NCBI RefSeq assembly: GCF_011634835.1
Contig: NZ_SIRP01000001.1
Coordinates: 799,140-863,139, forward strand
Source: Isoptericola sp. BMS4
GTDB lineage: Bacteria > Actinomycetota > Actinomycetes > Actinomycetales > Cellulomonadaceae
Length of the DNA: 64,000 nucleotides
Direction: 5' to 3'
Part shown: piece after piece, positions 44,357 through 47,976 of the stretch
How positions within the stretch are numbered: the first letter of the stretch is position 1
How the letters are laid out: every line of letters begins with the position of its first letter
Position numbers and translations under genes: made by a program
The notes under the pieces: model-generated
Databases searched by the model: none
What the model saw: only the letters and a program-made list of their open reading frames with translations
What the model was told of the DNA's origin: nothing

Positions 44357-45628
44357 TCAGGCGCGCAGGGCCTGCTCGACGTCCTCGATGATGTCGAGCG
44401 GGTCCTCGAGCCCGACGGACAGCCGGACGGTCGTCTCCGCGATGCCGACCCGGGCGCGCCCCTCGGGGCCGAGCTTGCGGTGGGTCGTCGTGGCGGGGTG
44501 CGTGACGATCGACTTGGCGTCGCCGAGGTTGTTGGAGATGTCCGCGACCTGCAGGGCGTCGAGGAACGCGAACGTGCGCTTCTTGGACTCCGCGGGCTCG
44601 GTGCCCTCGGGCGTCGCGAGGTCGAAGGTGACGACGGTGCCGCCGCCCGACTGCTGCGCCAGGGCGAGCTCGTGCTGCGGGTGCGAGGGCAGGAACGGGT
44701 AGCGCACGCCGGTGATCCCGTCGAGCCCCTCCAGCGCCGTCGCGACCTGCAGCGCCGCCGCGTTCTGCGCCCGGACCCGCACGTCGAGCGTCTCGAGGCC
44801 CTTGAGCAGCACCCAGGCGTTGAACGCGCTGAGCGACGGGCCGGTGTGCCTGACGAAGGTCTGCACCGGCCCGGTGAGGAACTCCTCGGTGCCGAGGATC
44901 GCGCCGCCCAGCACGCGCCCCTGCCCGTCGATGTGCTTGGTCGCGGAGTAGACGACGACGTCGGCGCCGAGCTCCAGCGGCTTCTGCAGCACCGGGGTGG
45001 CGAACACGTTGTCCACCACGACGACGGCGCCCGCGGCGTGCGCGAGCTCCGTCACGCGGCGCACGTCCACCAGGTCCTGCATGGGGTTGGACGGCGTCTC
45101 GAAGAACACGACGTCGGCCGGCGTGGCCAGCGCCTCCTCCCACCGGGAGGTCACGTGCCCGTCCACGAGGTCGACCCGCACGCCCCACTTGGCGAGGATC
45201 TCGTCGTAGATGACGTTCGTGGAGCCGAACAGGGCGCGCGACGACACGATGCGCGAGCCGCTGGACACGAGCGCGGCGAGCGTCGTGAACACGGCGGACA
45301 TGCCCGACGCCGTGGCATAGCAGGCCTCGGCGCCCTCCAGCAGGCGCAGCCGCTCCTCGAAGACGTGCACGGTCGGGTTGCCGTAGCGGGAGTACTGGAA
45401 CTGCGACCGCTCGCCGGCGAAGGCGGCCTCGGCCTCGGCGGCGGAGCCGTACGTGTAGCCCTGGGTGAGGAACAGGCCCTCGGACATCTCCTGGAAGTCG
45501 GACCGGCGGTGGCCCCCGCGCACGGCCAGCGTCGCGGGCCGCGCGGTCGCGGGCAGCGGGCGCGACCCGCCGAAGGGGACGTCGTCGGCGACGGGGCCGG
45601 TGGGGACGCCGGTCTCCCGGGCGGTCAC
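44357..45628 (-). CDS. metZ: O-succinylhomoserine sulfhydrylase / trans-sulfuration PLP enzyme
   Basis: A 423-residue Cys/Met-metabolism PLP enzyme. SQFQYSRYGNPTVHVFEERL, EGAEACYATASGMSAVFTTL, FFETPSNPMQDLVDV, VVVDNVFATPVLQKPLELGA and the PLP-lysine segment YSATKHIDGQGRVLGG are present. The sequence and gene order (rhodanese-metZ) favour O-succinylhomoserine sulfhydrylase making homocysteine from sulfide; cystathionine gamma-synthase is a close alternative. GTG 45628 overlaps the rhodanese stop (GTGA). Both are downstream of a SAM riboswitch, fitting feedback control of methionine synthesis. Confidence 0.9.
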   Translation of the reverse strand: MTARETGVPTGPVADDVPFGGSRPLPATARPATLAVRGGHRRSDFQEMSEGLFLTQGYTYGSAAEAEAAFAGERSQFQYSRYGNPTVHVFEERLRLLEGAEACYATASGMSAVFTTLAALVSSGSRIVSSRALFGSTNVIYDEILAKWGVRVDLVDGHVTSRWEEALATPADVVFFETPSNPMQDLVDVRRVTELAHAAGAVVVVDNVFATPVLQKPLELGADVVVYSATKHIDGQGRVLGGAILGTEEFLTGPVQTFVRHTGPSLSAFNAWVLLKGLETLDVRVRAQNAAALQVATALEGLDGITGVRYPFLPSHPQHELALAQQSGGGTVVTFDLATPEGTEPAESKKRTFAFLDALQVADISNNLGDAKSIVTHPATTTHRKLGPEGRARVGIAETTVRLSVGLEDPLDIIEDVEQALRA

Positions 45629-46098
45629 CGGGCGCCCTCCCGCGCCGCGGCGTCCGCCGGCTCGTACGCGCCCCAGGGCAGGCCGCGCACCTTCCAGCCC
45701 TCGCGGTCGCGGACGCCGTCGAACCCGGCGCCGCCCTCGAAGCCCTCCAGCACGTTGTAGGACGGGCCGATGCCGGCCGACGTCGCGAGCCGCGCGGCGC
45801 CGATGGAGCGCTGCCCGGAGCGGCACAGGAACACCACGGGACCGTCGGTCACGCCCGCCGCCGCGAGCTCGGTGAGGAAGTCGCCGTTGGGGCGCCCGCC
45901 CGCACGCACCCACTCGGCCAGGACGGGCGCCTTGCCGAGCGTGGCGACGTCGGGGACGCCGACGGCGCGCCACTCGCCCTCCGTGCGCACGTCCACCAGC
46001 ACGGCGGCGGGTTCGCGCTCCAGGAGGTCCCATGCCTGCTGCGGGGTGAGGTCGCCGGCGTAGCCGTCGGCGGGGCGGGGATCGATCGATGTCGTCAC
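45625..46098 (-). CDS. Rhodanese-like sulfurtransferase
   Basis: A 157-residue single-domain rhodanese. LTPQQAWDLLEREPAAVLVDVRTEGEWRAVG opens the fold. The active-site loop is VVFLCRSGQRSIGAA, with Cys as the persulfide carrier (about 92). It may hand sulfur to the following sulfhydrylase; the two genes overlap by 4 nt. GTG 46098 follows GGAGGAG. A SAM-I type aptamer occupies the leader, so sulfur transfer and homocysteine synthesis are probably shut down together when SAM is plentiful. Confidence 0.9.
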   Translation of the reverse strand: MTTSIDPRPADGYAGDLTPQQAWDLLEREPAAVLVDVRTEGEWRAVGVPDVATLGKAPVLAEWVRAGGRPNGDFLTELAAAGVTDGPVVFLCRSGQRSIGAARLATSAGIGPSYNVLEGFEGGAGFDGVRDREGWKVRGLPWGAYEPADAAAREGAR

Positions 46099-46122
46099 GG
46101 AGCTCCTCCCATCGGTCGTGGC

Positions 46123-46226
46123 GGTAGCACCCTCGTCCGGTCCGGATCCGTGCTGACACGGTGCCCGGCCCGCGGGTTGCTGCGGCGTCGACGTGCCACG
46201 TCACTCGGCCGCTCGGGATGGTCACC
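46123..46226 (-). ncRNA. SAM riboswitch, SAM-I (S-box) superfamily
   Basis: Read on the minus strand, ATCCCGAGCGGCCGAGTGAC then GTGGC, GTCGACGCCGC and AGCAACC follow the S-box order: AUC..GAG, GG, GAG.GAC, UGGC, GA.GCC, GCAACC. GCGGC/GCCGC forms P2 around the kink-turn, CCGTG/CACGG forms P4, and CATCCC pairs with GGGTG in P1. A -10 box TACGAT (46230-46235) puts the RNA start near 46224. It precedes rhodanese-metZ. The P3/P4 region is unusual, so a SAM-I/IV variant is possible. Confidence 0.8.
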
Positions 46227-46347
46227 GCGATCGTACGACACGACGTCCGGTGCGTGGGCGTGGCGTCTCACGCATCGGTCGAACCGCGCGGATCCGGGCC
46301 TCCCGAAGCGTCGCTGCGCCCGCATCGTGAGACATCACGTCCAGATC

Positions 46348-46376
46348 TTGACGCCGGCGCGGCGCGTGCGCAGCAT
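46348..46376 (+). promoter_or_regulatory. Promoter of the SAM-IV controlled transcript
   Basis: TTGACG (46348-46353), 17-nt spacer and CAGCAT (46371-46376) predict a start near 46383, immediately before the aptamer. CGTGA-GACA-TCACG (46326-46339) just upstream could be an operator. Confidence 0.6.
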
Positions 46377-46384
46377 GGGCACCA

Positions 46385-46499
46385 GGTCAAGAGCGCCAGC
46401 GCCAAGCCCCGGCTCGCTGGCCGGCAACCCTCCCCTCGCGGCGGGGTGCCCCGGGTGACGACCAGGCCCGCGCCGACCGGCGCCGGGCAAGCGCGGGGA
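46385..46499 (+). ncRNA. SAM-IV riboswitch
   Basis: Nearly every conserved block of SAM-IV is present in order: GGTCAAGAGCGCCAGCG, CAAGCCCCGGCTCGCTGGCC, GGCAACCCTCC, GGGGTGCCCCGGGTGACGAC and the downstream pseudoknot segment GGGCAAGCGCGGGG. After the aptamer, CCTCC (46507-46511) can pair with the GGAGGAGG ribosome site (46521-46528), so control is probably at translation initiation. SAM-IV is known mainly from actinobacteria, upstream of sulfur-metabolism genes. Confidence 0.97.
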
Positions 46500-46533
46500 G
46501 CCCGGACCTCCCCGGACGACGGAGGAGGCCCCC

Positions 46534-47976
46534 ATGAGCACGCTGACCGAGACCGCCACCTGTCCTGCCACGGAGCCCGCCCCGGTGCACGACGTCGCGC
46601 CCGTGCTGCCCGTCGTCGGCGGCGACACGCTCGTGCCGCTCGTCGACGGCCGCCGCGTGCGGTACGCCAACCTCGACGTCGCGGCGTCGGCCCCGGCGCT
46701 GGAGGCCGTCGCCGACCGGGTCACGCAGGTCCTGCCCCTGTACGCGAGCGTGCACCGCGGCGCCGGCTACCTGTCCCAGGTCTCCACCGCCCTGTACGAG
46801 ACCGCCCGCCGCACCATCGGGGCGTTCGTCGGGGCGCGCGACGACGACCTGCTGATCGTCACGCGCCACACCACGGACTCGCTCAACCTGCTCGCCGGCT
46901 GCGTCCCGGCGGACCCGGGCACCGGCGAGCCGGGCCGGGTGCTCGTCCTCGACGTGGAGCACCACGCCAACCTCCTGCCCTGGCAGCGCGGTACCGAGGC
47001 CACCGTGCTCAGCGGCGGCCCGTCCGTGGCCGCGACCGTCGCCGAGCTGCGCGACGAGCTGCGCGCCGGCGTCGCCGAGGCGCGACCGTACGCGCTCGTC
47101 GCGGTGACCGGTGCGTCCAACGTGACCGGGGAGGCCCTGCCGGTCGCCGAGATCGTCGCCGCCGCGCACGACGCCGGTGCGCGCGTGGTTCTGGACGGCG
47201 CGCAGCTCGTCCCGCACCGCCGGTTCTCGCTGGAGGACACCGGCGTCGACTACCTCGCGTTCTCCGGTCACAAGACGTACGCGCCCTTCGGCGCGGGCGT
47301 CCTCGTCGGGCGGCGGGACTGGCTCGACGCCGGCACGCCGTACCTCGCCGGCGGCGGGGCCGTGCGCCGCGTGCGCACGACGAGCACCGACTGGCACGAG
47401 GGCCCCGCGCGGCACGAGGCCGGGTCGCCGAACGTCATCGGCGCCGTCGCGCTCGCGGCCGCGTGCGAGGAGCTGGCGTCGGTGGAGGAGTCCGACGTCC
47501 GCGCCCACGAGGACGCGCTGCGGCGCCGCCTCGTCGCCGGGCTCGAGGCCCTCGACCGCGTGGAGGTCGTGCGGGTGTGGGAGGACGCCGCCGACCCGGT
47601 CGGCGTCGTGACGTTCACCGTGGCCGGGTACGACCCGGGCCTGGTCGCCGCCTACCTGTCCGCGGAGCACGGCATCGGGGTGCGGGACGGCCGATTCTGC
47701 GCCCACCCGCTCCTCGGGCGCCTCGGGTTCGACGCCGGCGCGGTGCGGGCGTCCGTCGGCGTCGGGACCGCGGGCGAGGAGGTCGAGCGGCTGGTGGCGG
47801 CGGTGGCCCACCTGGTCGCCGACGGGCCCGAGGCGCGCTACGGCGTCGTCGACGGCCTGTGGGTGGTCGTGGACGACCCGCGCCCGGTGCCGGCGGGCTC
47901 CGGCCTCGACGGGCTGCTCGCGACCGCCGCGCTCGGCACCGACGAGGCGTTCGGCTGCCTTCCGGACGACGTCTGA
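46534..47976 (+). CDS. Class V aminotransferase (cysteine desulfurase-like), SAM-IV regulated
   Basis: A 480-residue PLP enzyme. RRVRYANLDVAASAPALEAV, SVHRGAGYLSQVSTALYE, VTRHTTDSLNLLAG, LVLDVEHHANLLPWQ, VVLDGAQLVPHRRFSLED and the PLP lysine in YLAFSGHKTYAPFGAGVLVG identify the SufS/CsdA-like fold. GVRDGRFCAHPLLGRLG carries a Cys where SufS-type desulfurases have their persulfide-region loop. It is longer than SufS (about 410) with an extra C-terminal tail of about 60 residues. No suf or isc partner is nearby. Regulation by SAM suggests a role in sulfur or methionine supply, perhaps cysteine or homocysteine sulfur mobilisation; the exact reaction is unknown. Confidence 0.88.
   Translation: MSTLTETATCPATEPAPVHDVAPVLPVVGGDTLVPLVDGRRVRYANLDVAASAPALEAVADRVTQVLPLYASVHRGAGYLSQVSTALYETARRTIGAFVGARDDDLLIVTRHTTDSLNLLAGCVPADPGTGEPGRVLVLDVEHHANLLPWQRGTEATVLSGGPSVAATVAELRDELRAGVAEARPYALVAVTGASNVTGEALPVAEIVAAAHDAGARVVLDGAQLVPHRRFSLEDTGVDYLAFSGHKTYAPFGAGVLVGRRDWLDAGTPYLAGGGAVRRVRTTSTDWHEGPARHEAGSPNVIGAVALAAACEELASVEESDVRAHEDALRRRLVAGLEALDRVEVVRVWEDAADPVGVVTFTVAGYDPGLVAAYLSAEHGIGVRDGRFCAHPLLGRLGFDAGAVRASVGVGTAGEEVERLVAAVAHLVADGPEARYGVVDGLWVVVDDPRPVPAGSGLDGLLATAALGTDEAFGCLPDDV

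Follow-up and report, generated by a model that had tools for sequence, protein, structure and literature searches.

The intergenic region between two divergent operons of Isoptericola sp. BMS4 is, as a whole, probably best explained as a divergent pair of SAM-repressed leaders that stand before sulfur and methionine genes. The plus-strand leader carries a SAM-IV aptamer upstream of a class V aminotransferase gene, and the minus-strand leader carries a variant of the SAM-I aptamer, lacking the P4 hairpin, upstream of a rhodanese-metZ operon. We report the covariance matches, the conservation and the gene contexts of the two elements, together with covariation within the minus-strand element and the fusion of its P1 helix to a Shine-Dalgarno sequence. 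Throughout, 'the window' denotes the whole stretch of 64,000 nucleotides that was analysed, for which a first-pass annotation had proposed two SAM riboswitches of different classes at this locus.

Organisation of the locus

The genes and the region between them are as follows.

44357..45628, minus strand: metZ (O-succinylhomoserine sulfhydrylase), GTG start; NF005870 701 bits, cut-off 618
45625..46098, minus strand: rhodanese-domain gene, GTG start (46098-46096); open reading frame, PF00581 33.3 bits, cut-off 22.2
46099-46533: intergenic region separating rhodanese-metZ (minus) from the class V aminotransferase gene (plus)
46534..47976, plus strand: class V aminotransferase (AMT), cysteine-desulfurase-like; PF00266 267 bits

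The family models for the rhodanese, MetZ and the class V aminotransferase bear out the gene calls of the first-pass annotation. AMT scores 281 bits against TIGR01979, under the cut-off of 475, and cysteine desulfurases in the PDB match it down to E 6.7e-56. The metZ start overlaps the rhodanese stop in the sequence GTGA (45625-45628), so that metZ translation should follow that of the rhodanese by coupling. From the family names alone, we would guess at a sulfur route from cysteine through a persulfide and the rhodanese to MetZ.

The proposal of two outward-pointing SAM-clan aptamers of differing architecture is supported by the RF00634 and RF00162 matches and by the same arrangement in relatives; the gap between them measures 162 nt (46223-46384) rather than the 158 nt first given.

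The plus-strand aptamer

46385..46499, plus strand: SAM-IV aptamer; RF00634 95.3 bits, gathering 38

A cmscan of the whole window at curated thresholds returned RF00634 (E 4.4e-16 over the window) as its sole match, at exactly the position annotated as SAM-IV, and the minus strand gave no Rfam match at gathering threshold in that scan. The accessible text of PMC6890682 describes SAM-IV as lacking P4 and having P5 and PK-2. The match is full-length (1-116) and includes P5 and the 3' strand; PK-2, which is not part of RF00634's nested structure, was identified by eye. The aptamer shows no visible difference from RF00634, and it precedes a class V aminotransferase gene, like the Streptomyces clavuligerus SAM-IV described in the accessible part of PMC8269248. 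We assign the element as a canonical SAM-IV, which is predicted to bind SAM.

A P4-less SAM-I aptamer on the minus strand

46109..46222, minus strand: P4-less SAM-I (S-box) aptamer, 5' end at 46222; RF00162, alignment A1, model R1
46217..46221, minus strand: P1 5' strand CCAUC; A1 columns 2-6, invariant 76/76
46182..46212, minus strand: P2a, kink-turn (tandem G-A), P2b and loop; A1 columns 11-41
46196..46200, minus strand: PK-1 5' strand CGUGG in the P2b loop; A1 columns 23-27, covarying with 109-113
46114..46125, minus strand: J3/1, 12 nt, no space for P4; A1 lengths
46117..46121, minus strand: PK-1 3' strand CCACG in J3/1; A1 columns 109-113
46109..46113, minus strand: P1 3' strand GAUGG, whose final G also opens the Shine-Dalgarno GGAGG; A1 columns 117-121
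46105..46109, minus strand: Shine-Dalgarno GGAGG, 6 nt upstream of the GTG (46098-46096); from sequence

The best Rfam match of this element is RF00162, at 46224-46106 on the minus strand, with 38.1 bits and E 3.9e-7 (46050-46560 searched, 511 bases against 4227 families), a score below the gathering threshold of 44.4. When RF00162 alone was run against the whole own genome the element was found at E 8.1e-7, and at E up to 1 the genome holds one further site (54.6 bits), an element of the same kind that precedes a metF-like gene (methylenetetrahydrofolate reductase; TIGR00676 231 bits, under the cut-off of 293.7). A search of the own genome with RF01725 gave no match at E values up to 1. The three families that the first-pass annotation had named for a covariance search thus gave RF00634 on the plus strand, sub-threshold RF00162 on the minus strand and no RF01725; orthologues of the minus-strand element exceed the RF00162 threshold in seven of 17 loci scanned. 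The span it had drawn, 46123-46226, is too short, as it omits the 3' strands of PK-1 (46121-46117) and P1 (46113-46109), and for this reason we have redrawn the element as 46222-46109.

Alignment A1 combines rhodanese-type and metF-type sites. From 85 unique elements found by regular expression, five were dropped (SAM-IV or chance matches, and one without J3/1) and four of the remaining 80 were left out for a very long P3 (L051, L052, L054, L058), which leaves 76 distinct sequences, the window's own included, with a mean pairwise identity of 0.81 and a minimum of 0.62. The named structure is paired in 98.6% of 1897 cells, a figure that leans toward these sequences since the structure was derived from RF00162 and from the same sequences. 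Covariation scores 0.113 in A1, compared with 0.047 for shuffled alignments and at most 0.032 for slid controls. Both bases vary in five pairs, where shuffles average 3.4, and these pairs lie in P2a (two pairs), P2b (one pair) and PK-1; further pair types, at 9 against 9.2 in shuffles, are not above control in A1. P1 is invariant and so receives no covariation support.

The tandem G-A bases of the kink-turn are invariant (A1 columns 17, 18, 34 and 35) and P3 varies in length. PK-1, formed between the P2b loop and the strand 3' of P3, has 5 bp, reads CGUGG/CCACG in the window and CCUGG or UCUGG/CCAGG elsewhere, and is paired in 97.3% of cells; its column pair 24-112 is CG in 35 sequences and GC in 31, and of its ten unpaired cells five belong to sequences with an ACUUGG loop. 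As J3/1, between P3 and P1, measures 12 nt in 72 of the 76 sequences and 11 nt in the other four, P4 is absent from all of them. The start codon follows P1 by 10 nt in the window, which makes P5 and PK-2 impossible, and the element has no extra pseudoknot. The minimum free energy fold of the minus leader, by a method that cannot model the pseudoknot, does not form P1, and its stability does not exceed that of shuffled sequences (z 0.66).

The earlier label 'SAM-I/S-box type' therefore stands as regards the RF00162 match, the kink-turn and PK-1, and needs amending as regards P4. The element shares with RF00162 the core, P1, P2 with its kink-turn, PK-1 and P3; it differs in the missing P4, in a PK-1 3' strand that lies in a J3/1 of 11-12 nt and in a 5-bp P1 that is invariant in the window's family. 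Since P4 is listed among the features of SAM-I, with the kink-turn and the lack of an extra pseudoknot, in the accessible text of PMC7270179, we assign the element as a P4-less variant of SAM-I, predicted from its sequence to bind SAM. The combination of PK-1 and kink-turn with neither P4 nor PK-2 is not named in the accessible parts of PMC6890682 and PMC7270179.

Membership of SAM-I/IV (RF01725), a family of the same clan with a common core, is very improbable and was rejected: the covariance search gave no match, and the architecture is the reverse, for SAM-I/IV has P4 and lacks the P2a/P2b split and PK-1 (PMC6890682, accessible part), whereas the minus-strand element has the split P2, kink-turn and PK-1 and neither P4 nor a downstream PK-2. 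A chance match or a decayed copy, for which the sub-threshold RF00162 score might speak, is more improbable still and was likewise rejected, because the element is present in 53 of 80 related loci, is conserved and covarying at orthologous positions and has orthologues that exceed the RF00162 gathering score.

Conservation of the pair in relatives

The 80 named loci are those that carry the rhodanese, searched with strict regular expressions. AMT is present in 51 of them, and every one of these carries SAM-I upstream of its rhodanese-metZ operon as well as SAM-IV ahead of AMT (48 by regular expression; L068, L072 and L075 by cmscan), an arrangement whose retention by the relatives settles the reality of the minus-strand element. 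In some loci a distance of about 0.3 to 3.4 kb separates the SAM-I/rhodanese unit from the SAM-IV/AMT unit, and each unit has a switch of its own. In six of the 53 loci with SAM-I, 220-313 nt separate the element from the rhodanese match, and another short frame may therefore intervene there; two loci have SAM-I without an aminotransferase in the stretch examined. By regular expression, neither switch was found in five rhodanese-metZ loci or in nine loci with a rhodanese and no adjacent metZ, out of the 80.

In thirteen loci of Nocardia, Skermania and Aldersonia (L098, L101, L105, L107, L113, L118, L121, L127, L128, L131, L133, L135 and L140) SAM-IV stands immediately upstream of rhodanese-metZ, and the operon thus carries different riboswitch classes in different groups.

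A cmscan of 17 loci placed SAM-IV above gathering in 17 and SAM-I in seven (best 61.7 bits). Nine others fall under the SAM-I cut-off as does the window (Isoptericola, Luteimicrobium, Antribacter, Myceligenerans, Xylanimonas and Cellulosimicrobium), and the tenth is a Nocardia locus with SAM-IV alone. The Rfam threshold therefore misses SAM-I in the window's subclade, in nine of the nine loci scanned, with the result that these rhodanese-metZ operons would be annotated as unregulated.

Distribution of the P4-less form

A covariance model, R1, was built from A1; it scores the minus-strand element at 94.5 bits, its source alignment including this sequence. R1 matches 54 of 81 sources at E < 1e-17, namely the window and 53 of the 80 named loci, with one further weak match (E 0.007), and across the order it matches 128 of 297 genomes, belonging to 54 of the 94 genera, of which the richest genome holds 13 sites. 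Seventeen non-family loci taken from the 30 best R1 matches all lie above the RF00162 cut-off, so Rfam already collects the form: P4-less SAM-I is widespread in the order and is already within RF00162. Elsewhere in the phylum, 20 RF00162 regions chosen mostly for short match length comprised, by eye, 18 without space for P4 and two with P4.

Genome G560 (f82 g234) has 13 matches to the P4-less SAM-I model and seven SAM-IV sites, and L231 (G651:C14:1-20000) has five R1 matches within 20 kb of G651; the sites in both genomes suggest a large SAM-controlled sulfur regulon.

Why two classes at one locus

The first-pass annotation saw a functional reason for the use of two folds, and for this the comparative evidence is weak. 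We surveyed 20 genomes of other families, hand-picked after their matches had been seen, which hold 118 R1 and 95 SAM-IV sites. Twenty-one pairs lie within 500 nt, all of them divergent, of which 17 are mixed, two I/I and two IV/IV. The four same-class pairs are counter-examples that reject a strict avoidance of such pairs.

Of the mixed pairs inspected, those of L226-L228 join the aminotransferase to metF (put to a family test in L226), that of L205 joins two solute-binding proteins, that of L232 a MetN-like ATPase and SfnG, and those of L233 and L234 a sulfonate-type ATPase and an NtaA/DmoA monooxygenase; L235 has a UgpA-like permease on its one identified side. Among the same-class pairs inspected, a SufS-like class V gene stands opposite a luciferase-like monooxygenase in L236 (IV/IV) and an SfnB-like oxidoreductase opposite a sulfonate-type ATPase in L237 (I/I), and L229 (I/I) has a sulfonate-type ATPase on one side.

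We lean slightly towards the view that the difference in class is a historical accident, in which each unit keeps the riboswitch it inherited and no selection has acted for two folds; that same-class pairs occur as well is what allows this reading. It also draws on L226-L228, from another family, where an aminotransferase 60-62% identical to AMT has SAM-IV beside a different partner, metF, under SAM-I, on the SAM-IV of the SufS-like class V gene in L236, and on the 13 Nocardia-type loci with rhodanese-metZ under SAM-IV. Against it stands the excess of mixed pairs, 17 of 21 where label shuffling within genomes leads one to expect 10.2 (p 0.0012), a comparison made on genomes chosen post hoc and in which many pairs are orthologous; counted by inspected distinct gene pair there are about five mixed and two to four same-class, too few for a test. 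That the class is mostly inherited with each gene is a conclusion we hold with moderate confidence.

Proposed control of the two leaders

46494..46514, plus strand: hairpin CGGGGAG (46494-46500) / CUCCCCG (46508-46514), candidate expression platform; p 0.030 against base shuffles
46521..46528, plus strand: Shine-Dalgarno GGAGGAGG of the aminotransferase gene; from sequence

The suggestion that the two riboswitches have different expression platforms finds support in the sequence: P1 of SAM-I enters the ribosome-binding site (RBS), and SAM-IV is followed by a hairpin that overlaps PK-2. In the window, base 46109 is common to the P1 3' strand and the Shine-Dalgarno sequence, and this fusion occurs in 46 of 53 SAM-I loci and is absent from seven. 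As P1 runs into the Shine-Dalgarno sequence, SAM probably blocks translation of the rhodanese directly. Control of SAM-I by an RBS within P1 has already been described and is not new here; for the preQ1-I riboswitch, occlusion of the first G of the RBS alone has been suggested to suffice, according to the accessible part of PMC10907184. The minus leader would start near the aptamer and fold into the P4-less SAM-I structure with P1, P2 and its kink-turn, PK-1 and P3; SAM would lock the 5-bp P1, whose 3' strand enters the RBS, and translation of the rhodanese would stop, and with it that of metZ, whose start overlaps.

In the plus leader, PK-2 stabilised by SAM would take bases otherwise held in the downstream hairpin, the 5' arm of which shares bases with the PK-2 3' strand GCGCGG (46491-46496), and the 3' arm, once freed, would mask the RBS of AMT. 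Both units would then be OFF at high SAM and ON in methionine or SAM shortage. The hairpin varies in sequence among relatives and, of the two groups examined, is found in the window's family and absent from Nocardia-type loci. It is better than base shuffles, which do not preserve dinucleotides, at p <= 0.05 in 14 of 40 scored leaders (39 AMT-type and L101), many leaders having been skipped where the start-codon regular expression fired early or left no room. Of 44 AMT leaders folded with the PK-2 strand blocked, 12 lose more than 0.1 in predicted RBS accessibility and one gains, the mean control shift being +0.05; the window's own leader is unchanged (0.19 to 0.20), and among 11 Nocardia-type leaders three rise and two fall by more than 0.1, in folding that is limited by GC content and pseudoknots. 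SAM-IV may act through the PK-2-overlapping hairpin, a platform that is a hypothesis.

It is a less probable, if serious, alternative that SAM-IV acts here mainly through premature transcription termination rather than RBS masking. A premature transcription unit is reported, in the accessible part of PMC8269248, at the SAM-IV upstream of the class V aminotransferase gene of Streptomyces clavuligerus, which hints at transcriptional control and counts against the translational model; a GC-rich hairpin 3' of the aptamer and the unchanged RBS accessibility of the window's own leader under the PK-2 block point the same way. However, the hairpin and the PK-2 3' strand have bases in common, so that SAM would disfavour the hairpin, a terminator at this position would make an ON switch, and no U-run follows the hairpin in the window.

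Promoters and a possible shared operator

46230..46235, minus strand: putative -10 TACGAT for SAM-I/rhodanese-metZ; conserved box
46255..46270, minus strand: putative operator TGAGACGCCACGCCCA upstream of the SAM-I promoter; pattern TGAGACNNNNNGYCCA; GAGAC in 24/49
46328..46343, plus strand: putative operator TGAGACATCACGTCCA upstream of the SAM-IV promoter; pattern TGAGACNNNNNGYCCA; GAGAC in 38/49
46348..46376, plus strand: putative promoter TTGACG-N17-CAGCAT for SAM-IV/AMT; TTGAC conserved

Promoter-like boxes recur at fixed distances in 49 gaps, those of 48 loci and of the window itself, the distance windows having been chosen after inspection: TTGAC lies 33-42 nt upstream of SAM-IV in 49 of 49 and TA(CGAT|GCAT|ACAT|AGGT) 10-16 nt upstream of SAM-I in 44 of 49. 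GAGAC precedes SAM-IV by 54-61 nt in 38 of the 49 gaps and SAM-I by 44-50 nt in 24, the background being about 0.005 per position overall, sites included. One copy of TGAGAC-N5-GYCCA stands upstream of each divergent promoter. The pattern derived from the window's two sites has no other match in the 4.4-Mb genome, and its reversed-control pattern has no match there. TGAGAC-N5-GYCCA is a possible binding site of a sulfur regulator, and a shared transcription factor above both riboswitches is plausible on this pattern.

Implications

We regard as doubtful the combined proposition that the P4-less, PK-1-only element with its P1 fused to the RBS is a fourth SAM-clan architecture, and that its back-to-back pairing with SAM-IV is a selected design with an operator common to both promoters; were the design selected, it might provide, for example, staggered SAM thresholds or avoid an inverted repeat. 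A literature search found no paper on P4-less SAM-I and none on a divergent SAM-I/SAM-IV pair, most subscription papers being beyond reach and novelty unproven.

Two SAM-clan aptamers that face one cellular SAM pool offer a natural opportunity to compare, side by side, the purposes of the different scaffolds, and the P4-less form raises the question of how small a SAM-I aptamer can be. The contrast with Nocardia indicates that either riboswitch class can serve one and the same operon.
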